Counted from the stretch's first letter, positions 36,630 through 62,852 are shown. The stretch is DNA of 64,000 nucleotides from Chthoniobacterales bacterium (GCA_039930045.1 JBDSQB010000017.1:124001-188000), one strand, 5' to 3'. Notes: a model not told the origin generated them from the sequence alone. Numbers and translations are program-made.

Positions 36630-38114
36630 TTAGTGAGCCTCCTCCGGGTGCAGCGGGGCGATGAGCGTGGGTTCGTCGCTGATCTGGCCGAGGCGCAGAA
36701 TCATCAGCAAGAAATGCAGGGCAAAAATGAGGTGGCCGCCGAGCAGGAGCAAAGCGCCGATGATCGAGCCACGGAGCAACGGCAGGGTGGTTTGCATGAC
36801 GGTGATGTTGTCGATCTGCGCGTTGCCCCAGTCTTTGCCTTGGAAAAGTCCGGCGATGGTCAGCGTGATAATGGTCAGACCGATACCGTAAGCCGTTCCC
36901 CAGAAATGGAATCGAATGAAGGTCGCGGAAACCCATTCGCGACCCACCAAACGCGGGACGATGAAGTAGATCGCGCCGAACATGATGAAGGTGAAAAACG
37001 CGTAAAGGACCAAGTGGCTCTGGGCGACGGTGACATACGTCAGACCTGCCTCCGAGGCGGCGGTGCGCAGCGACAGGATGATCGCAGTCAAAGAGGAAAC
37101 CGTGTAAGCCATCGCGCCCACTACAGTGAACCGCAGGGTCGGGCTGTAGTGCATCATCTGATGTGCGCCGCCAGCCATCGTGAGATGATGATTCACCGCC
37201 ACTGTCGCGACCGGGATGATGGTGAGAGCCGTGGCCACGATGTTCAAGGTGATCAGCCACGTCGGAATCGGGCCGCCGTTGTAGCGTTGCAGTCCGCCCC
37301 AGCCAGCGAGAAACGCGAAGGCCCAGAAGCCGAGGTTGGCCAAATAGTAGCTGTGAATCGGACGTCCCGTGACTTTGGGAATCAAGTAAAAGGCGGCTCC
37401 AAGTCCGATGGCGGTGAACCAGTAATGCGCGATGGCGCTGATGAACCAAGCGTTGTTAATCGCAATGATAACGCCGTGGACCCAAGGCATCGCGGCAAAA
37501 ATGTTGGCGGCCAGCAGTGTCCAGGCCATCCAGATGAAGGCGGCGGTGATGTAGGCCTGAGTGATGAAACCCGTGCCCTCCAGGCGATTGTAGAAAAGGC
37601 CGACGATCCAGATGCCGATGATGGAAAATCCACCCAACATGGTGAGTTGCGACCAAATCGGGAGTTCCATGGATTCCAGCGAACGTCCGTAGCCGAGATG
37701 AATCGCCACGAGCCCGGCGAAGAGGCCGCCATTCCAGATCAGGGTTCCGATGACGACAGCAAGCGGAGAACCGAGTTTAACTCGGCAGAGGCGGACCATC
37801 AGCCAAAGCGAGACGCCCATTCCGGCGCAGGACGCCCAGCCGTAGGTAAACATGCTGGTCGCGATGGGACTCAGCCGACCGAAAGTGAGGAAGCTGTAAT
37901 CGGAAAGAAAGTCGGGCGAGAGCAGTTTCCAAGTCAACACGAGATTGAGCACGCTCCAGGCGACGAGCCAGAGAATGCCGAAGGTGAAAAGGAGTGCGAC
38001 CGGACCGGAGGCGGAGGCGTCGAGTTCCGCACGGGCGCGCATGTCGGCCTCGCTAACCTTCGGATAGGAGGTCAGAGTCGGGGTCAAATCGGGTTCGGCA
38101 AGAATGGAACTCAT
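36630..38114 (-). CDS. CcoN homologue lacking nearly all heme-copper ligands
   Basis: A 494-residue polytopic protein clearly homologous to cbb3 oxidase subunit I: FGRLSPIATSM aligns with FGRLRPLHTNA, YLIPKVTGRPIHSYYL with YFVPKQAERPVYSYRL, and VTVAQSHLVL with TIGHVHAGAL. The low-spin-heme His is Ala85, the TM6 CuB His is Ser226, the CuB His pair is near Leu275-Gln276, and the high-spin-heme His is Gln365; only His367 remains. It therefore should not bind CuB or two hemes in the normal way. It sits among intact ActA-F, CcoO and cytochrome c genes, so it may serve as a structural or novel electron-transfer subunit. Confidence 0.9.
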   Translation of the reverse strand: MSSILAEPDLTPTLTSYPKVSEADMRARAELDASASGPVALLFTFGILWLVAWSVLNLVLTWKLLSPDFLSDYSFLTFGRLSPIATSMFTYGWASCAGMGVSLWLMVRLCRVKLGSPLAVVIGTLIWNGGLFAGLVAIHLGYGRSLESMELPIWSQLTMLGGFSIIGIWIVGLFYNRLEGTGFITQAYITAAFIWMAWTLLAANIFAAMPWVHGVIIAINNAWFISAIAHYWFTAIGLGAAFYLIPKVTGRPIHSYYLANLGFWAFAFLAGWGGLQRYNGGPIPTWLITLNIVATALTIIPVATVAVNHHLTMAGGAHQMMHYSPTLRFTVVGAMAYTVSSLTAIILSLRTAASEAGLTYVTVAQSHLVLYAFFTFIMFGAIYFIVPRLVGREWVSATFIRFHFWGTAYGIGLTIITLTIAGLFQGKDWGNAQIDNITVMQTTLPLLRGSIIGALLLLGGHLIFALHFLLMILRLGQISDEPTLIAPLHPEEAH

Positions 38115-38503
38115 GGTTGTGCGGCGGGTGTTGCGGCTGGAACTGGAGCGGCAGGTGCGGCGGCAGCAGCAGGTGCAGGAGTCGTGGCGACAGGATAAGC
38201 TGAATGCGGCTGGATTTTGGCCAAATCCCTGGCGGTCAAGGTGATGGCGGCTTTCAGCGGGAGCTGGTAAATGCCCTTGGCTTTATCGACCACGCCATAT
38301 TCGCCAATTTTTTTGGCGTTCTCGTCGTTCAGTTTTTTCAGGTTTTCGTAACGCTTAGTGGCGCGGGCGGGATCGTAAGTCGTTGTGCCGCGAGTCGCAT
38401 AGAGGATCAAGGCCACGATGACCGCCGCCGAGGCGAAAGCGAACAAGACGCGGAACGCGGTCAGGACGCCAGGTTTGTGATCGGATAATTCAGAAGAGAC
38501 CAT
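38111..38503 (-). CDS. small membrane protein of the ACIII operon
   Basis: A 130-residue protein with one membrane helix (about 15-38), a soluble segment with a recurring pattern (RATKRYENLKKLN, KIGEYGVVDKAKGIYQLPLKAAI) and an Ala/Pro-rich tail. I have seen the YxxVDxxxGxxxLP pattern in small proteins placed in oxidase and ACIII gene clusters of several phyla; it may aid assembly or subunit contact. It lies between actF (10 nt) and the CcoN-like gene (4-nt overlap). No cofactor site is visible. Confidence 0.75.
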   Translation of the reverse strand: MVSSELSDHKPGVLTAFRVLFAFASAAVIVALILYATRGTTTYDPARATKRYENLKKLNDENAKKIGEYGVVDKAKGIYQLPLKAAITLTARDLAKIQPHSAYPVATTPAPAAAAAPAAPVPAATPAAQP

Positions 38504-38513
38504 GGTGACAGGA

Positions 38514-39746
38514 TTAGTTGGTCAGTTTAAGGGATTCCACTAGTCGCGGGTCGCGAGCCGGGAAGAGGGAGCGTTTGCCGACTTCGTAGAGGAACGCGAC
38601 GATGAGGAAGCTGCCGATGGTGATCGGGCAGATCAGATCGAGGATGTGCGGCGCAAATCCAGTCGTGTGAATGTTTGGCAGCACGATGATGTAAATATCG
38701 AGGAAGTGCATGCAGAGAATCCAGATGGCGATCCAACTGAGGACCGTCGGAATCTTTTTCACAAACCGGAAGAGCAGCATCAGGAACGGGATGAAAAAGT
38801 GCCCGACGACGAGAGTGATGTTGAGCGTATTCCAACTCTCGGTATTGCGGAGGAGGAAGTATTCAGTTTCCTCGGGGATGTTTGCATACCAGATGAGCAT
38901 GTATTGCGAGAAGCCGATGTAGGCCCAAAAAATGGAGAACACGAGAAGGAATTTCCCCATGATGTGGTAATGCTCCATGTTCACGACTTGCAGGTAGCCC
39001 AGTTTGCGCAGCCCAGTGATCACGAGAATCAGGACCGCCATCGAGCTCAAAGCCGAGCCCGCGAAGATGTAAACGCCCCACATGGTCGAGTACCATTTGT
39101 AATTCAGAGCCATGATCCAATCGATGCCGGCAAAGGTGATGGAGAGGGCGAAAAACGGGAGGGCGCGATATGATTTCGTGCGCATTTTCAAGCTATGCTT
39201 GATGTCACCTGTGGCGTCCTGCGCTGCGGAATGGCTGCGGAAAGTGCGGGCGAAAAACGTAAAGAAAGCGAAGTAAAAAACCGAGCGAATCCAGAAGAGC
39301 GGGATTTTGACCCCGGCGATGACGGGATAGAAATACCAAGTCTTGCTCGCGAAGACCGGATCATGCTCCGGATTTACGTTGATCCATTCCCAAATCGTGG
39401 TGCGAAAAAGCACCAGCGGAATAAAGAAAATGGCCAGATAAGGCATCAAGGACGCTAGATTTTCCATCTGCCGACGCACTACGACCGACCAGGCGGCATC
39501 GGTGGCGTGATGGAGGATGACCCAAAAGAGCGATCCCGCCAGGATGGTGAAGAAAAAGAGGAAGCCAAAGAGCGCGGAAAAGGCAAACTGCTTGGCCAGC
39601 AGCACGTCGTGAGTCGCCCGGAACCCGTAAATCGCGGCAATAATCAGCCCCACGATTCCCACCACTGCGGCGGAAAAGCCGAGGCGGCTGGTGGTTTTGG
39701 AGTCAAATTGCTCCGCTTTCGGTAAGGTAATAGAATGGTCGCTCAC
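38514..39746 (-). CDS. actF: alternative complex III subunit ActF
   Basis: A 410-residue integral membrane protein with about ten helices, homologous to the NrfD/PsrC-type quinol-interacting subunits. In ACIII, ActF pairs with ActC. Recognisable stretches are SLFWVILHHATDAAWSVVVRRQMENLA, ITFAGIDWIMALNYKWYSTMWGVY and WYANIPEETEYF. It overlaps actE by 4 nt. Confidence 0.93.
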   Translation of the reverse strand: MSDHSITLPKAEQFDSKTTSRLGFSAAVVGIVGLIIAAIYGFRATHDVLLAKQFAFSALFGFLFFFTILAGSLFWVILHHATDAAWSVVVRRQMENLASLMPYLAIFFIPLVLFRTTIWEWINVNPEHDPVFASKTWYFYPVIAGVKIPLFWIRSVFYFAFFTFFARTFRSHSAAQDATGDIKHSLKMRTKSYRALPFFALSITFAGIDWIMALNYKWYSTMWGVYIFAGSALSSMAVLILVITGLRKLGYLQVVNMEHYHIMGKFLLVFSIFWAYIGFSQYMLIWYANIPEETEYFLLRNTESWNTLNITLVVGHFFIPFLMLLFRFVKKIPTVLSWIAIWILCMHFLDIYIIVLPNIHTTGFAPHILDLICPITIGSFLIVAFLYEVGKRSLFPARDPRLVESLKLTN

Positions 39747-40414
39747 TTGGCCTCCAATTTGGCTAGGACGTCGGCTGGGACGTCGGTTCTTGCAGCATTT
39801 TGCGCACGTTGCAGGGCGCGGACGTAAGCCACAATGGCCCAGCGATCCTCACGAGTGACCTTGTCGCCATAGGGCATCATGGTGTTTTTACCGTGTACAA
39901 TCGTGTTGTAAATTTCACCATCGGCCATGTTGCGCAGACGGTCTTGATGATAACTCGGGACGCCGACCAACCCGTATTGGGTGGTGATGCCGTTGCCAGC
40001 ACCCGTGGCTCCGTGGCAAACGGCGCAGTTGATCTGGAACCGCTGATGACCTCGATTCAGGAGCGCCTCATTCACAAGAAGAGGTATGCCGGTGCCCCAG
40101 TTGGCACCCATTTTACCGGTGTCGATGTATTCGTCACCCTGGCTGAATCCCTTGTAGAGACCAGGGCCGGTTTCCTGGCCGGGAGTGGGTTTGCGGGGTT
40201 CGTTATATCCGAACGGAACCGTGCCGGCGACCGGCGGGCGTTCGACGCGTCCATCGGCAAAGAACTCGCTCGTCTTCTGCGGCTTGTATTTAGCCTGACG
40301 ATCCATGTCGGGGAAAATCTCCGTGGGCGGTTTGCGGGAGATGTCCCCACGGAAACCTGCGCCAGCGACCACGCCGATGCCGACCAGAAGTAGAATGAGA
40401 AAAAAGTAACGCAT
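39743..40414 (-). CDS. actE: alternative complex III monoheme cytochrome ActE
   Basis: A 223-residue protein with an N-terminal hydrophobic signal or anchor (MRYFFLILLLVGIGVVAG) and a single c-type heme site CAVCHGATGAGNG, with an axial Met in NTMMPYGDKV. In ACIII, ActE accepts electrons from the pentaheme ActA and hands them to cytochrome c or an oxidase. The position between actD and actF is the standard order. Confidence 0.93.
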   Translation of the reverse strand: MRYFFLILLLVGIGVVAGAGFRGDISRKPPTEIFPDMDRQAKYKPQKTSEFFADGRVERPPVAGTVPFGYNEPRKPTPGQETGPGLYKGFSQGDEYIDTGKMGANWGTGIPLLVNEALLNRGHQRFQINCAVCHGATGAGNGITTQYGLVGVPSYHQDRLRNMADGEIYNTIVHGKNTMMPYGDKVTREDRWAIVAYVRALQRAQNAARTDVPADVLAKLEAK

Positions 40415-40420
40415 CGTCGT

Positions 40421-40975
40421 TTATTCGTGGATCAGGGTGATATCCTTGGCGCCCAGCTCGGCGAGGAGTTCCGAGGTTCCCTGTTCGGTAAATTTCGGAT
40501 CAGCGGCCTCGATGATCATCATGAAACCGTCGTCGCTAAACTGGCCGAAACCATCCCAATTAAAAACAGGATGATGCCAGCGAGGCAGTCCGTTCAGCAC
40601 CAGCATGCTCCCAACAGCAGTGAACGCTGAAAAAAGAATGGTGAGCTCAAACATGATCGGGAAAAACGCTGGCACCGTGAAGAGACCGGTCGGTTTTCCA
40701 TGAACGATGAGCGGATACAGGATTTTGGAAGGGATAAACTCCAAGCAAACAGCCGTGGTAAATCCCGTTATTCCGCCGCAGAAAACGATCTTACCCAAAA
40801 TGGAATGCCCGAGGCCCATGGCCGCATCCATGCCGTGCACCGGATACGGTGTATGCACGTCCCAGCGGCGAAAACCTTTGTCGCGGATTTTCTTGGCGGC
40901 TTCGTAAATCTCGGCGGCACTCGAAAAGCGCGCACCCAGTCCGTAAATTTTGCGTCGTTCAGCGATGGCGGCCAT
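40421..40975 (-). CDS. actD: alternative complex III subunit ActD (DUF3341)
   Basis: A 184-residue protein with a soluble N-terminal domain (YGLGARFSSAAEIYEAAKKIRDKGF, DVHTPYPVHGMDAAMG) and two membrane helices (about 60-85 and 105-130), followed by a soluble tail. This matches DUF3341/ActD. It has no cofactors and stabilises the complex on the membrane. Gaps to actC and actE are 4 and 6 nt. Confidence 0.94.
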   Translation of the reverse strand: MAAIAERRKIYGLGARFSSAAEIYEAAKKIRDKGFRRWDVHTPYPVHGMDAAMGLGHSILGKIVFCGGITGFTTAVCLEFIPSKILYPLIVHGKPTGLFTVPAFFPIMFELTILFSAFTAVGSMLVLNGLPRWHHPVFNWDGFGQFSDDGFMMIIEAADPKFTEQGTSELLAELGAKDITLIHE

Positions 40976-40979
40976 AAAA

Positions 40980-42470
40980 TTAGTAATGCAATCCCGTGGT
41001 GACAGGCTGGGTTTCGTGATCGCCCTTCTTCAGATGATAATGCGGGTCGGCCTCGGGCAGAACGCCTTTGACCTCGGAAATCGCAATCATCGGCAGGAAA
41101 CGAATGAAGAGCAGAAACAGCGTCATGAACAACCCAAACGTGCCGGTGAAAGTCCAGATATCAACCCAAGTCGGATGGAACATGCCCCAAGCGGATGGCA
41201 CGAAGTCGCGGTGAATCGAGGTGACGATGATGACGAAGCGCTCGAACCACATGCCGGCGTTGACGCACATGCAGACGGCGAAGACGACCCAGATGTTGTA
41301 GCGCATCCGCGGAATCCAGAAGATCTGGGGCGAGATGACGTTGAGCGACATCATGGCCCAGTAGGCCCACCAATACGGGGCGACCGGGACGTTGTAGAGC
41401 TTGCTGAAAATGTAAGGGTCGGCCATGCGGTTGCGCAGGAAGAGCCAGGTTTCATACGGATTGCCCGAATAGGCTGCCGTGAAAAATTCCATGCAATAGG
41501 CGTAACCCACAATGGTGCCGGTGAGCAGGATGATCTTGCACATCACATCGACGTGTTTCGGGGTGATCAGATCGTGCAACCCGTAAATCGCCCGCGCTGG
41601 AAGCATGAGTGTGAGCACCATGGCGAAGCCGCCAAAGATGGCACCGGCAACGAAATACGGAGGGAAAATCGTCGTGTGCCAGCCGGGAATGACGGAAGTC
41701 GCGAAGTCGAAGGACACGACCGAGTGCACCGAGAGCACGAGCGGAGTCGAGATGCCAGCGAGAATCAAATAAGCCAGCTCATAGTGGCGCCATTGGCGGT
41801 TGCCGCCGCGCCAACCGAGGGCGAGAAAGCCGTAGGCGAAACGGGAAATTTTGCTCGTGGCCCGGTCGCGCAACGTGGCGAGATCGGGAATCAGGCCGAC
41901 AAACCAGAACATCACGGACACGGTGAAATAAGTGGATACCGCAAACACGTCCCAGAGCAGCGGAGACCGGAAGTTGGGCCAGATGCCATTCGCATTCGGA
42001 ATCGGCGCAAGGAACCAGACCATCCAGATGCGGCCGACGTGAATGCCGGGGAAAATACCAGCGCAAACCACCGCGAAAAGGGTCATTGCCTCGGAAGCGC
42101 GGTTGATCGACGTGCGCCATTTCTGACGAGTCAGAAAGAGAACCGCCGAGATCAGAGTTCCGGCGTGGCCGATGCCGATCCAGAACACGAAATTCGTGAT
42201 GTCCCACGCCCAGCCGACGGGGTGATTCAATCCCCAGACGCCGACGCCTGTGGAAATCATGTAGGCGATGCAGGAGAAACAGACCAGGGCCAGCGTGCCG
42301 CAGATCGCTAGCGAGACAAGCCACCAGACAGGAGTCGGGCCTTCGACGATGCCGCAGATGCGCTGGGTGACCCAGGCCATCGAGCGGTTATTAAGGACGA
42401 GAGGAATGCGCGGAAGCGGTTCCTCGGCGGTGGGGTTGGGCCCCATGACAAGCATTTCGGAAGTAGCCAT
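40980..42470 (-). CDS. actC: alternative complex III quinol-binding subunit ActC
   Basis: A 496-residue NrfD-family integral membrane protein with about ten helices. The sequence [39 protein letters not shown] is highly typical, as is [32 protein letters not shown]. ActC is the site of menaquinol oxidation and probable proton handling. A Shine-Dalgarno-like AGGAG lies upstream. The start shares one base with the actB stop (TAATG). Confidence 0.95.
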
Positions 42471-45400
42471 TAGTGATGTGCTCCTGCGGGTTCGTGATTA
42501 GGATGCAACTCGTCCGGGTTTTTAGCGGGTCCATTTCCACCGGGAGCGCCCTGGCCGTGGAGAGACTCGTATTCGTCCGGATAAATGTCGGCCACTTTGT
42601 CAGCACCGGGCATTTTCGGGTTCGGGTTGCGAATGCGCGCCAGATAGCTGGTGCGCGTGCGAACGTCCAAATACTCCAGCAAACGATAGCGGCGCGGGTT
42701 GTCGAGCAGCTTGGCCACGGCACTGTCCGGATCGCGCAAATCGCCGAAGGTGATCGCGTCCGTCGGGCAGGCCTGCATGCAGGCAGACTGAATCGAGTCC
42801 GTTGGGATTCTCAATTTATCCGAAGCGCCCGCCTTGATGCGTGAGCTGATGCGGCCTTCCTCGATGCGCTGGATACAGTAAGTGCATTTCTCCATGACGC
42901 CTCGGATGCGGACCGTGACGTTCGGGTTTTTCTGCATCTTGGTGAGCTCCTCGGTGCCTTTCGGCGCGAGAGGTCCATAATAAAGACCGCTGGCCTCGGG
43001 CAGGATGCCGACCTTGATCTTCTCGATCGGGCGCTCGTTGTAGTTGAAGAAATTGAAGCGGCGCACCTTGAACGGGCAGTTGTTCGCGCAATAACGGGTG
43101 CCGATGCAGCGGTTATAGGCCATCACATTGAGGCCGTCCTCGCTGTGAACCGTGGCGTTGACCGGGCAAACCGTCTCGCACGGGGCGTTTTCGCAATGCT
43201 GACAACCCATCGGCTGCATCATCATTTCGGGTTCCGTCTCATTGTGCTCATCGCCAGCGGTGGCAAAGTAGCGATCAATGCGCAGCCAGTGCATTTCGCG
43301 GTTATTCATCACCTGCTGCTTGCCGACGATTGGAATGTTATTTTCCGCCTGGCAGGCAATCGTGCAGGTGCTGCAGCCGGTGCAGGTGTTCAGATCAATC
43401 ATCATGCCCCATTGCTCAGGCATGTTCAGAGGCGGCGATTTATAGAGCGAAATGTTCGGCGGAATGTGCCCGTCGATGTGCATCGTTTTGGCAAACTCTG
43501 GGTCCTCAGCAAATTTCTCAGCGGTAGCTTCGCGAACGAGCGCGCGGCCTTCCATCTGATTGTGCTCCTGGGTAAGGGCCAGCTTGTATTGTTTGCCAGT
43601 TCTTTCCACAGCCGCCACGGCGACATACGGAGCGGTGGAACTGATCAGCTGAAAGGCATTGAACCCGACTCCGGTGCCGATTTTGCCAGCGGTGCCGGGG
43701 GCATGACCATAGCCGCGAGGCAGGGTGATCGACTCGTCGGCATGTCCGGGGCAGACCAGAACGGGCACTTCCAGGCTGCGTCCATTCACCGTGATTTTTA
43801 CCACATCACTATCGAGGTGCGACTCGTCGGAACGCACTAGCGGATCGCTCGCGCGGGCGAGATCCAGATCCGTGGCCGTTTTGCGGCTGATGAGGGCCGC
43901 GTTGTCCCAAGTCAGCTTGGTGATTGGATCGGGCAATTCCTGAAGCCAGCCGTTGTCGATACTGTTGCCGTCGGGAATTTTGTAGTCAGGCGGGAAAACG
44001 ATCTCGATGCCCTTGTTTTCGGCCAAGGTGATGGCCGTCGCCGCACTGCGGAAAGCCAGCGGAGCCGCTGCGGGCGGGATGTCGAGATAACCGTTTTGGA
44101 GAAATTTTGGCCAGTCAGTTCCGGCAGCGAGCGTGTCGAAAGTCGCACGGACGAGTTCCGCTCCAGTCGGGGCAGGAAGCCCGGCGACCAGCGAAAGCAC
44201 ATCATTAATAGAAAGCCCGCCGAAAAGCGGCAGAATCATCGGCTGCACGGGAACGTAAGTCCCATCGGGAGTCAGGGCGTCATCCCAGCTTTCGAGAAAA
44301 TGCGTGCCGGGAACGTGCCATTTGGCGGCTTGCGCTGTGGCATCGGTGCGGAGGCCGACATGAATCACGTCGGGGACAGACTTGAGCAACTCGGCAAATT
44401 GGAAGTCGGCTGGAGCGGTGTAAACCGGATTGGACTCAAGAACGAAAAGCGCCGAAACCGTCTTAGCTTTGATGGAGGCTGCCAGATCGGCCAAGGTTCC
44501 AGCAGCGACTGGAGGAATCGCGACTCCGAGAAGTGTGGAGCCGACGTTGCCCAATGCCTGATTGATGGCAAACCCGAGCGCCTGCACTTCGACTGGCTGG
44601 CGGGGTCCGACGAAAACGAGACTCGCCCCTCTCGCCGTCAACAAATCGGCAGCGCATTCCTTGATCCAATCGGCGCTGGCTCCCAGATCGGCAGTGCCCG
44701 TCGCAGTGGCGGCGACTCCCAATTCCTTGGCAAGAGCCACGAGGAAGGCCGGAACCAGACCCGCCTTGAGACGCAGGCGATGGTCGGCCATGCCGCCAGT
44801 AATTGTGTAGCGATTTTCAACCGCGTAGAGGCGGTTCATTTTGCCAGCCGGATCGCGGCGGCGGGAAAATTGACGCGTCGCGTCCGTTCCTACGGCGTCG
44901 ATGCCGAGGAAATCGGAGTCCACGGCGAGGATGACGTTTGCCTTTTCGAGATTGTATTTCAGCGCGACGCCATCACCGAAAGACGCGGCGACTGCCTCGT
45001 GCCGGAGGCTGCCGGTGGGATCGTAAACGTGAAATTTCGCGCCGGGATATTTTGCGGCAATCTCCCGCTGGAGTCGGGCGCGCGTCGGCGAATTGCTGAC
45101 GTCGGAGAGGAAAGCCATTCCCTCGCCGGCGCCGGCTTTGCTGAGAAGATCCTTCAGATATGACTCAAACTCGGCTCGCTCGGCTTTTTGACCGTGGGCA
45201 ACAAATGTCCGGGAGCGCTCTGGGTTGTAGAGGTCGAGAATCGTCGCCTGCGCCTGTAAATCGGTCGAACCGCCAGTCGATGGATGCAGCGGGTTGCCCT
45301 CGATTTTGGTGGGACGACCGTCATTCGTGGTCACCATTAGCGGCATTGCGCCGCCGCGTCGCGGCATCGCGCTGGCATAGTAAAGCGCCTTGCCAGGAAT

Positions 45401-45679
45401 GCTCCATTCGACGCTCTTCGAGAGTGCGGCAAATTGGATTTCCGGACGACGGCAGCCACTGAATCCAAAACCGGCCAGCGCCAGCGAGGCGCCCATGATT
45501 TGCACGAAACTGCGACGGCTCAGCCCATCGGGTCCATCCAGTTCCAACTCGGCGGCGCCTTGGGGAAATTCACGCGCCAGCCAGCCGCGGAAGGAGGGCG
45601 TGTCGGCCAGTTCCTCGACGTTGCGCCAATATTTCTTGCCGGTCGCGGCCTCGGTTGGATGTTGTAAAATACGTTTCAT
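42470..45679 (-). CDS. actB: alternative complex III iron-sulfur subunit ActB
   Basis: A 1069-residue fusion of a molybdopterin-oxidoreductase-like domain (no cofactor in ACIII) with a C-terminal ferredoxin domain. A twin-arginine signal [23 protein letters not shown] near residues 53-75 ends in a lipobox-like Cys. The C-terminal quarter contains four Fe-S motifs: [38 protein letters not shown] and CTYCIQ with CMQACP. Electrons pass from ActC through these clusters to ActA. The ATG at 45679 fits the usual short leader and lies 11 nt after actA. Confidence 0.95.
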
Positions 45680-45690
45680 TGACCTGGTGA

Positions 45691-46353
45691 TTAGCGGTGG
45701 CAGCCCCCGCAGTTTTGCGGCGGGCGGATGGCCCATTCTTTCACGAGCTGGGTGCCGATTTCGTTTTGAGCTTTTTGCGGGTCCTTGCCTTCCGGTTTCC
45801 AGTCGAGGTTAAAGACTTGCTCCATCGGACGAATTTGTTTTTCGGGATTGCGATGGCAGTCGAGGCACCAGCTCATGCTCTGCGGCTGGTCGTGCTTGAC
45901 AACTTCCATTTGATTGATCTGGCCGTGGCAACTGACGCAACTGACGCCGCGATTGACGTGCACGGAGTGGTTAAAATACGCGTAGTCTGGCGCGTAATGG
46001 ATGCGCACCCAAGGCAGCGGCTGGCCGGTTTCCCAAGCAGTCCTCAGCGCGGCGAGTTTCGGGTTGTTTTTCTGGATCTGCGAGTGGCAGTTCATGCAGG
46101 TCTGCGCCGTGGGAATGTTGGAGTGCGCGGAGACTTCGACGTTGGAATGGCAGTAACGGCAATCCATCCCGAGCTGGTTGACGTGGATGTCGTGCTGGAA
46201 GGGCACCGGCTGGATCGGCTGATAACCGACGCGGGTGTATTTCGGGGTAAAGTAGTAGGCGACTCCGGCAGACACGGCTGCGCCAAGGACAGCTACGCAG
46301 ACGAGGACTTTGAGAGGTAGCTGATTCGACCAGCGTGGAAAAATATTGGCCAT
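45691..46353 (-). CDS. actA: alternative complex III pentaheme cytochrome ActA
   Basis: A 220-residue protein with one N-terminal membrane helix (about 12-32) and five CxxCH heme sites: CRYCH, CMNCH, CVSCH, CLDCH and the C-terminal CGGCH. This is the ActA hallmark. It heads the ten-gene minus-strand operon; the promoter must lie upstream of 46353 in the region that also carries a small plus-strand reading frame. Confidence 0.95.
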   Translation of the reverse strand: MANIFPRWSNQLPLKVLVCVAVLGAAVSAGVAYYFTPKYTRVGYQPIQPVPFQHDIHVNQLGMDCRYCHSNVEVSAHSNIPTAQTCMNCHSQIQKNNPKLAALRTAWETGQPLPWVRIHYAPDYAYFNHSVHVNRGVSCVSCHGQINQMEVVKHDQPQSMSWCLDCHRNPEKQIRPMEQVFNLDWKPEGKDPQKAQNEIGTQLVKEWAIRPPQNCGGCHR

Positions 46354-51719: not shown

Positions 51720-52270
51720 GGTGTTTTTTGAGTTGGGTTAGGTTGAAATGACGAAATGGTTGTTTTGGGCGAAATGCAGCGGTTTGGACAAAGAATGGGC
51801 GAAAAAGTCCGCAGTCTGGACACGTTTCCTCCCACAAATGCAAGACCCGGCCACAGGAATGGCATTTTCCGTTTTGAAATGGGCCATCTGGCAGACAGGA
51901 ACGGTGCTTGCAGGATGGAAAGAGGCCATCTGCTCCAGCCGAACGGTGCTGGCAGGATGGAAATGCGCCGTCTGGCCGACCGGAACGGTGCTGGTGGGAT
52001 GGAAAGAGGTCATCTGGCCGGCGAGAAAGCCCCCGGTAAACTGAAAACCAGCGGAGTTGCATCCGATTCTGCCACTGGTGGCAGGGATGCCGGGGGCCGC
52101 CTTTACCGAACGGGACGTTTTGCACGAAAGCCATGGGCAGCCATGGCGCGCACGCTATCAGGCCCGACACTGGGGGGCGATGATTATTTGTCTGTTGAGG
52201 AAATAATTCGGCCAACAGCAGGCCACCGCCGCGATGGACGACTCCATCCAAGCCGATCCCGAACGCGTGC
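51720..52270. other. 551-bp region with tandem repeats and no firm gene
   Basis: Three frames stay open here because the repeat unit is a multiple of three, but none has codon bias, family similarity or a ribosome-binding site. The minus-strand frame near 51760-51850 encodes two CxxC pairs (CHSCG ... CPDCG) that resemble a zinc ribbon, and a minus-strand frame starting at 52013 encodes repeated FHPASTVP-like units. A short inverted repeat (TGCCAC-TG-GTGGCA) occurs near 52071. Confidence 0.5.
51858..52025. repeat. four tandem copies of a 42-bp repeat
   Basis: Copies begin at 51858, 51900, 51942 and 51984. The last three share AACGGTGCT, then (T/G)G, then GGATGGAAA and CATCTG or CGTCTG; the first is more divergent (AATGGCATTTTCCG). 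The period is exactly 42 bp (14 codons). The region lies upstream of the 249-aa gene on the minus strand. Confidence 0.88.
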
Positions 52271-56517: not shown

Positions 56518-57309
56518 ATGCCACCAATTCAGGTTCTGCCCTCAACCAAGGCTAACCTGCATGAGCTGGCCAGAGAATCCGTGGTAATTTCCCTTATTCT
56601 TCCAGGCGTGAAACCCGCTTTGCTGGGAAATGCCCTGCGCGAAGCCTGCCCGGACGCCGAATTCCATTGGGCGAACGAAGGACTGCTCTCCAGCGACAAG
56701 CAGCGCGCCACGGCCATCGACCAGATCATCGGCTTCTGGGCCATCGTCAACCAATCCGGCGGGCACATCATTCATGGCCGCGAAGTGATGGGGTTCTGGC
56801 AGCTCTTCGCCGGCTCCTCGTGGATCACTTTTCTCGGCAATCCACTCTGGCGGGCGATGGACAGCTATCGCCACATTCTTCAGGACTCTAAACACCCGCT
56901 GCACGGGGAAATCTCCGGCGCGCAGCTCTCGATCGGGGAATTTTTTGCCTCCTCCATCTCCAAGCCGATACGCAACCGGCAAAGCAGCAAGCTCCTGACC
57001 ATCTCCGCCAGCCAGGAGACGGAACCCGCGTGGCTCTTCGAGCATGCGCGCCGGCGTCTGGAGCATTTCGCCTGGGTCGGCTTGGAGGGCATCGACATGG
57101 GACCGCAACTCCAGCTCGCGCGGACCTTGCGGACGGGCATTTTCAATGTTTCCCCGCCCATTGTCGCCCACCATCGCGGGCCGAAAACCTCTCTCAGCGC
57201 GGCGGACAAGCGCATCATTCGCGAGGCGAACATCGCCGATTTCCAGCTTTGGGAACTCTTCCGCCGTCGTCGTTACCTGAGCTTTCTGCGGAAAGGCCGT
57301 CACGCATGA
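56518..57309 (+). CDS. sulfotransferase-like protein with degenerate PAPS loop
   Basis: A 263-residue protein resembling the Sulfotransfer_2 family in its order of motifs: HIIHGREVMGFW, then ITFLGNPLWRAMDSYRHI (usual ITFLRDPVERxLSHYxH), EFFASSISKPIRNRQSSKLL, ARRRLEHFAWVGLEG, and DKRIIREANIADFQLWELF. Where active enzymes have a PAPS-binding PKTGGTS loop the sequence reads LPGVKPALLG, and the Arg of RDP is Gly. It may be inactive or use a different donor. The gene starts a three-gene run with 4-nt overlaps. Confidence 0.6.
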   Translation: MPPIQVLPSTKANLHELARESVVISLILPGVKPALLGNALREACPDAEFHWANEGLLSSDKQRATAIDQIIGFWAIVNQSGGHIIHGREVMGFWQLFAGSSWITFLGNPLWRAMDSYRHILQDSKHPLHGEISGAQLSIGEFFASSISKPIRNRQSSKLLTISASQETEPAWLFEHARRRLEHFAWVGLEGIDMGPQLQLARTLRTGIFNVSPPIVAHHRGPKTSLSAADKRIIREANIADFQLWELFRRRRYLSFLRKGRHA

Positions 57310-58838
57310 GCGCGCCCGAGGTCGCCGCCTCCAGTCTGCCCCGGCTCCTCTTCGTCACCGGCTCCACATCCGGCATCGAGGAATATTTCTATCTCTCCGG
57401 CGTCCTGCCGTGGGTCGATGGATTGCGGCATCACTTTCAAGTGGAAGTCGTGGCGGCGGCGCAGGATGTGATCCCGGCGGCGGAACGTTTCGCGCCCGAT
57501 CTCGTGCTGTTTTTCGGGGCCAAATACAAGCTTCTCTACGACGGCCCGGCCCACAATTTCCAGACTCTGCTCGGCATTCCCATCGCCGCTCTCACCTTGA
57601 TGGATGGCCACAGCCCGGCCAAGCAGCCCTTTTTCGAGCACGCCTGGCGGCTCGGTGTCGAGGCCGTCTTCACCATCGACACCGGCATGAGGGAGATGGC
57701 CGGCGACTTCGCGGAGCAGGTTTTTTATTGTCCGTGGTTCGTCAACGAGGACATGTGCCGCGATTTCGGCGAGAAAAAAGTCATCCCCGTCGCCCTCATT
57801 GGCGACGGATTCGTCTCCACGGGCAAAGACTGGCGCTACCCGTGGCGGCGCAACGTGGCCGCGCGTCTGCGTGAGGCATTTCCCGTTTTCAGTTCGCCCC
57901 GGCCCACGCGCGGCTACTCGCACCGCATGGTCGGCGAAGCCTACGCACGCATGCTCAACCGGAGTTCCATCGCACTCGCCTGCGGGGCGTCGCGGCATAT
58001 TTTCATGAAGAAAGACCTCGAGATTCCCGCTTCTCGAAGCTGCCTTCTCACCGAGCCAAACGACACGCTCATTCACCTCGGCTTCCGCGACATGGAGAAC
58101 TGCGTTTTTGCCGAACCCGACAACGTTGTCGAGAAATGCCGCCATCTTCTCGATCACCCAGACGCGCTCCAGAAAATCACCGACCGTGGCCGCGCCTTCG
58201 TCCTCGAGCGGCACAGCGCCAAAGCCCGGCGCGTCATCGCCGACTGGCTGGAACTCCGGAATCAGAAAAAACCGGGCGAGCGCATCATTCAGCCGGACGT
58301 CATGAATCGACTCGAACTCGTCCCCGCGGAGAGCGCGCGCACCAGCATTTTGCTCAGTTCGCATGCGCCCTTCACCGTGGCCATGCGCGAGGCGTCGGAA
58401 GCGTGGCGGCGAGATGATTTCGCCACCTGCCAAACCGCCGCCACAGCGGCCACCGACCTGCTCTCCTTCACCATCGAACCTCTGCTGTTACTGGCGTATG
58501 CGGCATTGAAAAAAGGCGACGCGACAGAAGCGTTGCAGCCGTTGAGAACCATCATTCTTCGCTGCATCCAATGGGGTGCGGCCAACCCCGACCCGCTCGT
58601 TTGGGCCGCGTATTTGCTGGGCTTGCATCTGTCTGGAAACACGGCCCAGTCGCAGTCGCTCAGCGAGACTTTCCCGGAGGTTCGCCATCCGGCTTTGGAT
58701 GCTGTCCGGCAGGCGATCCGGGGCGGTGAATCGACTGAAACTCCCCTCCACGCGACGCCTTCCGCCGTGCTGCCGCCGTGGCACAACACAGACGAGTTGC
58801 AGTCCTTTCTGGCTGCCGCTTACCAGACACGACCATGA
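57306..58838 (+). CDS. CgeB-like glycosyltransferase with C-terminal helical domain
   Basis: A 510-residue soluble protein. The first ~330 residues are a GT-B-type transferase of the CgeB/glycos_transf_1_2 kind: LLFVTGSTSGIEEYFYLSG, PDLVLFFGAKYKLLYD, and a nucleotide-sugar half with GASRHIFMKKDLEIPASRSCLLTEP and EKCRHLLDHPDALQKITDRGRAF. The final ~170 residues are alpha-helical, possibly TPR-like (AYAALKKGDATEALQPLRTI). ATG at 57306 overlaps the preceding stop (ATGA), and the next gene overlaps in turn, so the three are co-translated. Confidence 0.75.
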   Translation: MSAPEVAASSLPRLLFVTGSTSGIEEYFYLSGVLPWVDGLRHHFQVEVVAAAQDVIPAAERFAPDLVLFFGAKYKLLYDGPAHNFQTLLGIPIAALTLMDGHSPAKQPFFEHAWRLGVEAVFTIDTGMREMAGDFAEQVFYCPWFVNEDMCRDFGEKKVIPVALIGDGFVSTGKDWRYPWRRNVAARLREAFPVFSSPRPTRGYSHRMVGEAYARMLNRSSIALACGASRHIFMKKDLEIPASRSCLLTEPNDTLIHLGFRDMENCVFAEPDNVVEKCRHLLDHPDALQKITDRGRAFVLERHSAKARRVIADWLELRNQKKPGERIIQPDVMNRLELVPAESARTSILLSSHAPFTVAMREASEAWRRDDFATCQTAATAATDLLSFTIEPLLLLAYAALKKGDATEALQPLRTIILRCIQWGAANPDPLVWAAYLLGLHLSGNTAQSQSLSETFPEVRHPALDAVRQAIRGGESTETPLHATPSAVLPPWHNTDELQSFLAAAYQTRP

Positions 58839-59740
58839 GTTTGCCGCGCCTCCATTTGAGTCTAAGTCGAACCGGAAAGGATTTCTCCGGCGTCTGCGAC
58901 TGGCCGGTTCCGCCTGCGATATTGGCCGGGCTCACGGAGACGGCTGACTCGAATGCACTGGAACTCGTTCTCATTTCCCCCGATGCGGAGCGCGTGACGG
59001 AGAAATTGCCCGCAGAAACCCGCGCTGCCTGGCTCCCGCCGGACTCCGAGGGTCGCGTGAATGAGATGCAACTCCGCCTCGCCGCCGAGCTGGGTTGCAG
59101 TGCGATCTTCGCCGGCGACACCGCCCTGAAAACCAATGGTGCCATCCCGGTTTTTCACATTGCCAACTATCCCGGAATATTACGGAGAGAGGCTCGGGAA
59201 AAACCATTCCCGCTCGGCTTGGTCGGGCCCGATTTCCATTTTGCAGTCGAATCGGAGCACCCGTGGAGAAACCGGGTGGTGGAGCCGCTGATGAAGACGT
59301 TTCCGTGTCTGTCTTATCTCGAAAATTGCAGCCGCTCGGCACGGGAATATCGCGCCCAATGCGATCTAACTGCGCTCTGCGGCGGCAGCGAGGGACGTTT
59401 CGCGCCTGCATTTTTGGAGATCCTGCTGGATGGCAGTGGCTTGGTGACGGAACGCAGCGTGATCTTGGAGAAACTGGGGTTTGCCGACGGCGTGAATTGC
59501 CTGTTCATCACGCCGGAACAAGCCGTGGCCAAGTGCGCCGCGCTGCTCGCCGACCCGGAACGCCTGCGGCTGATTCAGGAGAATGGACGCCAACTCGGCC
59601 GAAAAATTCTCGCTCAATCCGGCGCTGGAATCGTCCGCGCCTGGTGGCTGGCGCAGGAGCAGGACCGGAAATTTACGTCCGAGCCGGGGCAGGATCATCG
59701 TCCACGCGGCGTGCTCGATTTTCTCTTCCACCGCCTGTAA
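58835..59740 (+). CDS. CgeB-like glycosyltransferase, shorter relative
   Basis: A 301-residue protein. The C-terminal half has the same pattern as its upstream neighbour: GRFAPAFLEILLDGSGLVTE, CLFITPEQAVAKCAALLADPERLRLIQENG (PF13524-like). The N-terminal half is divergent (LSLSRTGKDFSGVCDWPVPP). ATG at 58835 overlaps the preceding stop by 4 nt. Its 3' end overlaps the convergent fusion glycosyltransferase gene by 68 nt, in agreement with separate transcripts. Substrate unknown. Confidence 0.68.
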   Translation: MSLPRLHLSLSRTGKDFSGVCDWPVPPAILAGLTETADSNALELVLISPDAERVTEKLPAETRAAWLPPDSEGRVNEMQLRLAAELGCSAIFAGDTALKTNGAIPVFHIANYPGILRREAREKPFPLGLVGPDFHFAVESEHPWRNRVVEPLMKTFPCLSYLENCSRSAREYRAQCDLTALCGGSEGRFAPAFLEILLDGSGLVTERSVILEKLGFADGVNCLFITPEQAVAKCAALLADPERLRLIQENGRQLGRKILAQSGAGIVRAWWLAQEQDRKFTSEPGQDHRPRGVLDFLFHRL

Positions 59741-62700
59741 CGGGTTCGAGCGCACGGTAAATTTCCAGATATTCGCCAGTCATTTCAGCGACGGTTTTCT
59801 CCGGCATCTGGCGGATTTGCTCGCGCTTCTGCTCAAACTCTGCCGGGTTTTCCAGTGCCGCCAACATGCCGCGATACCACGCCTCGGCGCTGCGATGATC
59901 CAGCAGCCAGCCGCCGCCGTGCTGCTCGACGCGCTCCTGAAGCGTGCCGATGTTTGAGGCGAAAACGGGCAGCCCGACGGCCCACGATTCGGTGAGCGTG
60001 TGGCAGTAGGTTTCCGGCCAGATCGAGGAAACGATGGAGAACGACGGGCCGATTTTCCGGAGGTGATCGTTGAGCTGCTCGCGCTTGTATTTCCCGTGGA
60101 GAATGCCGCCGAGCGGCTCCAGATCGGTGATTTCCTTGGGCAAACTTCCAAGGAAATGGAACTCGAACCGGCCCGCGCCCGCCTGGTCGAGCGCCATAAT
60201 TTCGCGGATGAGATTCATGCCTTTCGGGACGCTCATATTGCCCAGACAAATGACCCGCGCGGGCTGTCCTGCCACCGGTGCGACCACGAAATCCTCGCGC
60301 TGAAGGTCGCGGCCATGCTCGATGACATGCAGTCGCGAGGCGATTTGAGGGAAGTGCTCGACGAATAAATTTCGCGAAAACAGCGAGGTCGTCACCAGTG
60401 CGTCGCAGTGCGAAGCGATGGCGTCGGACATCAATTTCCGATGCACATGCACATAGGCGTGCTTCAAAACCGGGCCGCTATTGTCGAACCAGCGCCCGCG
60501 CAATTCGCATTTTCCCTGCCCCGGAGTGCAATGGCCGCCGCAAAATTGGAGCTTCTCGTCGAGCAGCGTCGTCGTCGGGCAAATCGTGTAAAAATCGTGC
60601 AGCGACAGGACCACGCGCAGGCCTTTTTGACGCGCCACGGCGAGCGACTCCGGGCCATTGCCGACGAGGTGCCGGAAGTGGACGAGGCCGACTTTCATCG
60701 CACTCAGGATTTCCGCCCAGACGTCGAGCCGCTCGCCGTTGAGAGTCTGATAATACTCCCAGCGCTCGGCGAAATGATACCGCCGCAGCGGGGTCAATTT
60801 CGTGCGCGACGCCCTCAGCAGCGTCCAGTGGTATTCCGCCGTTTCCAGCAGGAGCACTTCGTAATGATCCATCATGCCGCGGATCAAATCCTCCGAGGTA
60901 AACCGCGTCCCGCCACCGCTGGCATGGATCACGTAGAGCAGCACCGGCTTCGTCTCCGGCTGGGGAAAGCCGGAGCGCCAGGGTGCTTTTTGCAGCTCCG
61001 CCCGCAGATCGTCCACGGGGTCATTTTTCAGCCATTGCTTGCGCAGTTCCTTGTAATCGGGATGCAACTCCTGGAGCTTGAGCTTGCTCGCCTCGAGCAG
61101 CGGAGCCTTCGCAGCGCCAAACGACGCCGTGCGCTTGTGATAAATGAAAGTCGCGTCGTCGATCAAACTGAGGAAGCCCAGCTTGCGTGCCCTCATGCAA
61201 AAATCATTCTCCTCGCCGTAGCCGCGCGGGAACGACACCTCGTCAAACGGCCCCACTTTTTCCAGCGCGGCGCGCAGCACAAACAGGCAAAATCCATTGC
61301 CGCATGGCACCACTGGACGCCGCCGCCGCGTCAGGCGCTCCACCCAGCCCGCGAGTTCGGACGGGCTCAGGTCGTCGGGCATCGGATTGTCGATTTTATT
61401 GAGGGGAACAGAGAAATTTCCAGCCGCATTCGACACTGCCGTCACCGTGGCCACATCGGCGCGACTGTAGGCGACGGCGGTCAATTTTTCCAGCCAGAAC
61501 GGAGTTACAATCGTATCGCTGTTCAGCAAAATCACATCGCAGGGCCGGGCAAACTCGCAGCCGATGTTTACCGTTTTCGTGTAGCCCAGATTTTTGCGAT
61601 TCCGAATCGCGCGAATGTGATCGTGTGCCCGCGCATACGACCGCAATTTCGGCCAGACGCGCTCGTCGGTACTGCGGTCGTCGATCAGGAGAATTTCGTG
61701 CGGATGCCGCGTGTGGAGGAGGAGGTTTTCGATGCAGGTGACGACTTCCTCGTAGGCGTTGAAGACCGGGATGACGACCGCCACGGGACGTGGTTTTTTC
61801 TGCCGGTTGCGCCGCGACTGCTCACTTTCCGACATCGAAATGGAACTGCTTTGCTGGATTTTGTAACGCTGATCCTCAATGCACGTTTCCAACTCGCGCA
61901 ACCGGCGGAGGCGCTTCGTGCGGCTGAGGATTTGCCAGCGAAAATGGAGCAAATTTCCCAAGATCCAAGGGAGCGCGTTGAGCGTTTTCAGGTGTTCCTG
62001 GCGGAAGGTTTCCAGGAGCGAAAGCGAGTCGTCGAGGTTGTTTTTGGCGGATTCCTGGAGCCGGGTCAGCTTCCAATGGGTTTTCCACGAAGTGCGGGAA
62101 GATTTCTGGACTTCGGCAAGTGTGCGCAAATTGGCCTGCGACGTGTTCCAGATGGTTTTTTGGAGGGCCAGCACCTCGGCGGCTCCCTCGGAAATGCGGG
62201 AAAAATCATCCGCCAGCGTCGACGACGGGTTTTGCATCGCTGAGTAGAGTGCGAGCTGTTTCTGGTTCAGAAAATCTCCGCTCTGCGATGCCAGATTCGA
62301 CTCCAACTCGATTCTGTTTTCCGGCGGTTGAAGGAAGCCTTCGATGCCGGCGGCTGCCAGTTGCTCGCCCAGACACGCCGGGTCACGCAGATCCTCGTAA
62401 CGCACAAAAATCTGCTGCAAACCGCGGGCATTTTGCAGGGCGGAAATCGTCGAAAGTTCCCAAAGCGCGAGGCCGTGCTGCAGGGTGAGCCCGTGGTGTT
62501 TTTTCAGTGCCGAGGCGACTTCCATGGGATTCCGCACGATGTGCAGGCAGACCGGGTTTTCCAAAAATGGCCGCCAGAATGGCAGGAGAAAACTCAAACT
62601 CGACTCTTGGAAAACCCAAGGCCGATGCGGCTCCAGTTCGTCCAATATTTCCCGAGCGCGATCCTGATACGACACCACTGTGGCGAGTTGGCGGGCGGCG

Positions 62701-62852
62701 GACTCGTCCATTTTCTGCCATTCGGTGCCGCAGGAATGCAGAATCTCCTCGTGCAGACGACGCAAGTCCGGTCGCTGCCCGCCCATTTGCCCGAGCCATT
62801 CCGCTGCGACTGAGGCGCCGGATTGGGGCATTCCGAGGACGAGAAGAAGCAT
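59673..62852 (-). CDS. sulfotransferase-GT2-GT4 fusion enzyme
   Basis: A 1059-residue soluble protein with three parts. Residues 1-230 resemble a sulfotransferase: LLVLGMPQSGASVAAEWL (5'-phosphosulfate loop) and HIVRNPMEVASALKKHH (3'-phosphate site). A helical linker follows (about 230-345). About 350-630 is a GT2 domain (VAVVIPVFNAYEEV, LIDDRSTDE, LLNSDTIVTPFWLEK, RGYGEENDFCMRARK). About 640-1045 is a GT4 domain (YVIHASGGGTRFTSEDLI, LSLHDFYTICP, VICLGNMSVPKGMNL, PETYCHTLTESWAVGLPVFASNIG). One polypeptide could extend and sulfate a surface glycan. Confidence 0.85.
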   Translation of the reverse strand: MLLLVLGMPQSGASVAAEWLGQMGGQRPDLRRLHEEILHSCGTEWQKMDESAARQLATVVSYQDRAREILDELEPHRPWVFQESSLSFLLPFWRPFLENPVCLHIVRNPMEVASALKKHHGLTLQHGLALWELSTISALQNARGLQQIFVRYEDLRDPACLGEQLAAAGIEGFLQPPENRIELESNLASQSGDFLNQKQLALYSAMQNPSSTLADDFSRISEGAAEVLALQKTIWNTSQANLRTLAEVQKSSRTSWKTHWKLTRLQESAKNNLDDSLSLLETFRQEHLKTLNALPWILGNLLHFRWQILSRTKRLRRLRELETCIEDQRYKIQQSSSISMSESEQSRRNRQKKPRPVAVVIPVFNAYEEVVTCIENLLLHTRHPHEILLIDDRSTDERVWPKLRSYARAHDHIRAIRNRKNLGYTKTVNIGCEFARPCDVILLNSDTIVTPFWLEKLTAVAYSRADVATVTAVSNAAGNFSVPLNKIDNPMPDDLSPSELAGWVERLTRRRRPVVPCGNGFCLFVLRAALEKVGPFDEVSFPRGYGEENDFCMRARKLGFLSLIDDATFIYHKRTASFGAAKAPLLEASKLKLQELHPDYKELRKQWLKNDPVDDLRAELQKAPWRSGFPQPETKPVLLYVIHASGGGTRFTSEDLIRGMMDHYEVLLLETAEYHWTLLRASRTKLTPLRRYHFAERWEYYQTLNGERLDVWAEILSAMKVGLVHFRHLVGNGPESLAVARQKGLRVVLSLHDFYTICPTTTLLDEKLQFCGGHCTPGQGKCELRGRWFDNSGPVLKHAYVHVHRKLMSDAIASHCDALVTTSLFSRNLFVEHFPQIASRLHVIEHGRDLQREDFVVAPVAGQPARVICLGNMSVPKGMNLIREIMALDQAGAGRFEFHFLGSLPKEITDLEPLGGILHGKYKREQLNDHLRKIGPSFSIVSSIWPETYCHTLTESWAVGLPVFASNIGTLQERVEQHGGGWLLDHRSAEAWYRGMLAALENPAEFEQKREQIRQMPEKTVAEMTGEYLEIYRALEPVTGGGRENRARRVDDDPAPART

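Follow-up and report, generated by a model that had tools for sequence, protein, structure and literature searches.

The locus raises the question of whether a single bacterial protein both lengthens a surface glycan and sulfates it. The gene lies in a 64,000-nucleotide stretch of a Chthoniobacterales genome (hereafter, the window), where an open reading frame of 1059 aa runs on the minus strand from an ATG at 62852 to a stop at 59673 (59673..62852; G000:C17:183676-186852 in the whole genome). The start of the frame cannot be placed further upstream, since the ATG is preceded at a distance of 9 nt by an in-frame TAG, and the codon-position GC of the sulfotransferase-like domain is coding-like. 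The original prediction of a sulfotransferase-like part, a GT2 and a GT4 in one chain is confirmed in this order, with the first part now regarded as a putative pseudo-sulfotransferase that is followed by a predicted coiled coil.

The glycosyltransferase half looks intact, so that glycan elongation by this part of the protein remains plausible. The GT2 domain (residues 351-600; 61053..61802, minus strand) matches PF00535 over residues 359-533 (72.7 bits against a cut-off of 23.3, 4e-20) and keeps the motifs LIDDRSTD, LLNSDT and GYGEEND, together with D392, D446, E547, E548 and D550. The GT4 domain (residues 641-1037; 59742..60932, minus strand) keeps K877-G878 and E947-x7-E955, and is matched over residues ~650-1013 by PF00534 (38.2 bits, cut-off 26.4, 1.3e-9), PF13692 (32.2 bits, cut-off 27) and PF13439 (28.6 bits, cut-off 28.5, 1.7e-6). 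The GT2-GT4 core retains 60 of the 62 columns conserved (at least 95%) in 73 relatives, a figure that is inflated in favour of the window because those relatives were partly found with peptides taken from it.

With regard to the N-terminal part, the Pfam search that recovers GT2 and GT4 gives no match in residues 1-230, where the gathering cut-off of PF13469 was not reached, yet the same region scores 112 bits against a sulfotransferase-family profile made from 26 relatives, the window being left out. Blastp searches with residues 1-229 detected relatives with up to 34% identity (best E 3e-33), which themselves match PF13469 (Sulfotransfer_3), one of them (L032) above the cut-off (28.1 versus 27). 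An AlphaFold model of residues 1-345 (mean pLDDT 78, mostly 81-94 over residues 1-170) gave TPST-1, the CurM sulfotransferase, TPST-2 and Stf0 as its top Foldseek matches in the PDB (best E 4.5e-4), although the long coiled coil keeps the TM values normalised to the query low; these predicted long helices (residues 196-345; 61818..62267, minus strand) link the sulfotransferase-like domain to the GT2 domain. The original prediction had been staked in advance on a sulfotransferase fold in residues 1-230, and sulfotransferases are indeed the best PDB matches of the model. Judged by sequence and predicted fold, residues 1-190 (62283..62852, minus strand) are a true Sulfotransfer_3/TPST-like homologue by descent.

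This descent is accompanied by the loss of most of the residues for catalysis and PAPS binding. Sulfotransferase catalysis is carried by the loop Arg/Lys, the Lys of the KDP motif and an acidic base. When the family profile is aligned with human TPST-1, HRSGTS corresponds to PRSGTT, KDPR to NKDPF, and RxP...S to VRDGRASVHS, TPST-1 motifs in which the catalytic Arg, the catalytic Lys and the Ser of the 3′-phosphate site are located, the acidic residue between them being the base. An alignment of 50 sulfotransferase relatives revealed four motifs common to ~48 intact ones (HRSGTS, NxxGxxE, K[DE]PR and RxP...S...R), and the window differs at nearly all of the polar family-defining positions. It keeps 13 of the 24 columns conserved in at least 95% of the 48 intact relatives, mainly Gly, Ser, Leu, Trp and Pro plus R107, and has lost the other 11 (H9P, R10Q, T13A, the deleted N and G, E26Q, K82Q, P84S, R85S, S115A and R119H), which include the equivalents of the P-loop Arg and Thr, of the 3′-phosphate Ser, of both basic residues in KDPR (Lys and Arg) and of the NxxGxxE glutamate.

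The supposed PAPS-binding loop reads GMPQSGAS (residues 7-14; 62811..62834, minus strand) where the relatives have GMHRSGTS or GAHRSGTS (HRSGTS in 47-48 of the 48 intact ones, versus PQSGAS), and that assignment is not confirmed, most other PAPS and catalytic positions being lost as well. A deletion of ~19 residues at positions 25/26 (62775..62780, minus strand) removes a segment present in every intact relative, including the N and G of NxxGxxE, whose E is replaced by Q26; QESS (residues 82-85; 62598..62609, minus strand) stands in place of K[DE]PR; and the 3′-phosphate site (residues 107-119; 62496..62534, minus strand) keeps R107 and P109, with S115 changed to A and R119 to H. A frameshift or annotation artefact behind the missing NxxGxxE motif was considered and ruled out, because in-frame homology is found on either side of the deletion and the in-frame stop bars an upstream start. 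The retained positions are loop G7, S11, G12 and S14, together with R107, which may still allow weak binding of PAPS or PAP, and the structural W45, W93, L130 and W131. As compared with Sulfotransfer_3 (PF13469) and with TPST-1/2, CurM and Stf0, the nearest solved structures, the window domain shows homologous sequence and predicted fold and conserves the 3′-phosphate Arg and the loop Gly/Ser, but lacks the loop HRSGT, NxxGxxE, KDPR and the Ser of the 3′ site.

The two halves of the protein also differ when compared with each other. The 60/62 columns kept in the glycosyltransferases versus 13/24 in the sulfotransferase domain give a Fisher P of about 6e-6, an approximate and only indicative value because the columns are not independent. 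The terminal branch of the window measures 1.16 in the sulfotransferase tree (median 0.21) and 0.67 in the glycosyltransferase tree (median 0.40), a contrast that, with sparse sampling near the window, fits a relaxation of constraint.

Since the predicted fold is kept but the residues for PAPS binding and transfer are lost, the N-terminal domain can be regarded as a pseudo-sulfotransferase, and a protein whose sulfotransferase part lacks the needed residues most likely only adds sugars. The explanation that we consider clearly probable is that of a glycosyltransferase with two functions, to which an inactive pseudo-sulfotransferase domain is attached, sulfation at this island having probably been lost. 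According to its family and intact motifs, the protein would be a cytoplasmic enzyme whose GT2 and GT4 domains would each add one sugar, in succession, to a growing glycan, either of the envelope or exported. Homology shows that the N-terminal domain comes from a PAPS-dependent enzyme of the Sulfotransfer_3 type fused to a GT2-GT4 chassis, as in several other lineages; it would now be non-catalytic, and either serve in structure or assembly or be decaying. Human EXTL3, a two-domain exostosin that retains a GT47 domain in inactivated form (PMC9178029), offers a working analogy, as both are fused glycan-building enzymes that retain an inactive catalytic domain, although EXTL3 is unrelated to the window protein and its dead domain is itself a glycosyltransferase.

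The survey of domain order that the original prediction called for indicates that the fusion is not rare. The sulfotransferase-GT2-GT4 order occurs in Acidimicrobiales (L061, L088, L098), a Bacteroidia MAG (L096) and Magnetospirillum (L100), proteins that share the GT2-GT4 chassis of the window but keep intact sulfotransferase motifs. Elsewhere, for example in Pseudoxanthomonas, Luteimonas and Mesorhizobium, the sulfotransferase has an ORF of its own, located close to one that encodes GT2-GT4. Within the order of the window, the sulfotransferase profile matched in 80 of 213 genomes, many of the ORFs being of ~1100 aa, and three of the eight proteins analysed by Pfam are clear fusions of the same domain order with an intact sulfotransferase, those examined differing from the window in a more distantly related GT2-GT4 pair, as seen for the GT2. 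The fusion is therefore a common, recurring architecture, and the unusual feature is the loss of the sulfotransferase residues. A limited literature search found no paper describing bacterial fusions of this kind, and nothing direct on bacterial sulfotransferase-glycosyltransferase fusions or pseudo-sulfotransferases. Another genome of the order (G032) contains a fused sulfotransferase, GT4 and GT2 (L152:2130-5429, minus strand) with a partly degenerate sulfotransferase, which shows an HRGGPS loop and ADPR for KDPR, and keeps 17 of the 24 conserved columns.

The N-terminal regions of 67 GT2-GT4 relatives carry different domains: Methyltransf_24 in six, Sulfotransfer_3 in five and a pyruvyltransferase in two. 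The closest relatives of the window in its glycosyltransferase half are those with Methyltransf_24 (L023, L024, L028, L092) or PS_pyruv_trans (L022, 48% identity), L022, L023 and L092 being the nearest, all of which differ from the window in having a methyl- or pyruvyltransferase as the N-terminal decorating domain. The sulfotransferase domain groups elsewhere, with L106, L107, L137 and stand-alone gammaproteobacterial enzymes (support 0.92). Given these two affinities, the window protein looks like a product of domain shuffling.

On the opposite strand, a second sulfotransferase-like gene and two CgeB-like transferases had been proposed to complete a glycan-modification island, a description that stands in part. 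The former (56518..57309, plus strand) encodes a 263-aa distant homologue of HIPKTAGTT sulfotransferases of 273-301 aa, with 22-23% identity to these Sulfotransfer_2-like relatives, but it reads LPGVKPALL and FLGNP where they have HIPKTAGTT and FLR[DN]P, and has lost both the P-loop and the FLR arginine. A search of PDB sequences with this protein gave no match, and its structure model (pLDDT 41) was too poor to use. Neither for this gene nor for the fused one were closer relatives in the phylum seen with the same degenerate motifs. As for the CgeB-like pair, the 511-aa protein (57303..58838, plus strand) is confirmed by PF13524 (47.2 bits, cut-off 25, 2.8e-12), whereas the 302-aa one (58832..59740, plus strand) stays below threshold (12.8 bits, E 0.11); its gene converges on the fused gene, with 3′ ends that overlap by 68 bp.

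Such pairs recur, as relatives often have a second sulfotransferase nearby, and the clusters for the sulfated polysaccharides synechan (xss, PMC8205485) and of Actinoplanes (wps-1, PMC13390465) likewise carry two sulfotransferases of different families in one glycan island. In the window, however, the two sulfotransferases are degenerate, one of them forms part of a fusion with glycosyltransferases, and no adjacent Wzx/Wzy or ABC exporter was recognised. Because the second protein is degenerate like the first, sulfation at the island has probably been lost; with 11 of 24 sulfotransferase columns missing in the fused gene, and the P-loop and key Arg in its neighbour, the proposed coupling of elongation and sulfation is probably wrong.

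The genome itself can, judged by its APS kinase gene (C3:133979-134431), make PAPS. A single Sulfotransfer_2 gene above cut-off (C3:133146-133670) is found ~300 bp away, no match to PF00685 was found in the genome, and a PF13469 match at C19:40761 was not counted, as it is located inside a 443-aa ORF whose sequence reads NadR-like. The region G000:C3:133146-134431 (L182:7147-8432), which is distant from the window, has the look of a locus dedicated to sulfation, and any sulfation that the organism carries out is better attributed to this APS kinase/Sulfotransfer_2 pair than to the fused gene.

Other readings of the N-terminal domain deserve consideration. It could have been repurposed for a PAPS-independent task, such as the binding of a partner protein, a different nucleotide or the acceptor glycan, so as to guide the two glycosyltransferase domains. 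This would agree with the intact reading frame, the confidently predicted fold, the kept structural residues and the EXTL3 precedent, but a recent loss of constraint would look alike where close relatives are missing, and we regard it as rather unlikely. Equally doubtful is its extension to both degenerate sulfotransferases, which would then be pseudo-enzymes kept for a new function that needs no PAPS, such as glycan or partner binding that steers the GT2-GT4 polymerase, a repurposing which would recur in cases such as L152. It is very unlikely that all three domains are active and that the protein both elongates a surface glycan and sulfates it through an atypical PAPS site: the loss of the R10, K82, R85, E26 and S115 equivalents and of the 19-residue segment kept by all intact relatives outweighs, in our opinion, its sulfotransferase ancestry and predicted fold, the remaining S11, G12, S14 and R107, the PAPS supply of the genome and the intact motifs in relatives of the same domain order. 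A P-loop protein of a different kind, for instance a kinase of small molecules, would fit the missing Pfam match in the window sequence and the kinases lower down the Foldseek list, but is hardly credible given the 112 bits from a profile built without the window, the sulfotransferases as best fold matches and the relatives above the PF13469 cut-off.

The reading as a glycosyltransferase with an inactive sulfotransferase domain bears on annotation, as annotators guided only by sulfotransferase ancestry would expect the surface glycan to be sulfated, a prediction against which the motif test speaks. The GT2-GT4 chassis is widespread, with exchangeable N-terminal decorating domains (sulfo-, methyl- or pyruvyltransferase), and in the window member the decorating domain would be decaying while the sugar-transfer half is conserved. 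Such a decaying domain on a conserved chassis would constitute a natural test of a structural role beyond catalysis.

Some minor observations can be added. In one genus of the order, three sulfotransferase-family genes are found in tandem (G026:C12:71965-74798 and G197:C82:9166-12187), and relatives of these genomes have 4-5 sulfotransferase-family matches each. In the window, positions 51882-52020 hold a tandem repeat with a 42-bp unit in 3.3 copies, open on both strands, and a gene run at 38114-46353, which includes a 1088-aa iron-sulfur protein and a multihaem cytochrome, resembles by eye an alternative complex III respiratory operon.
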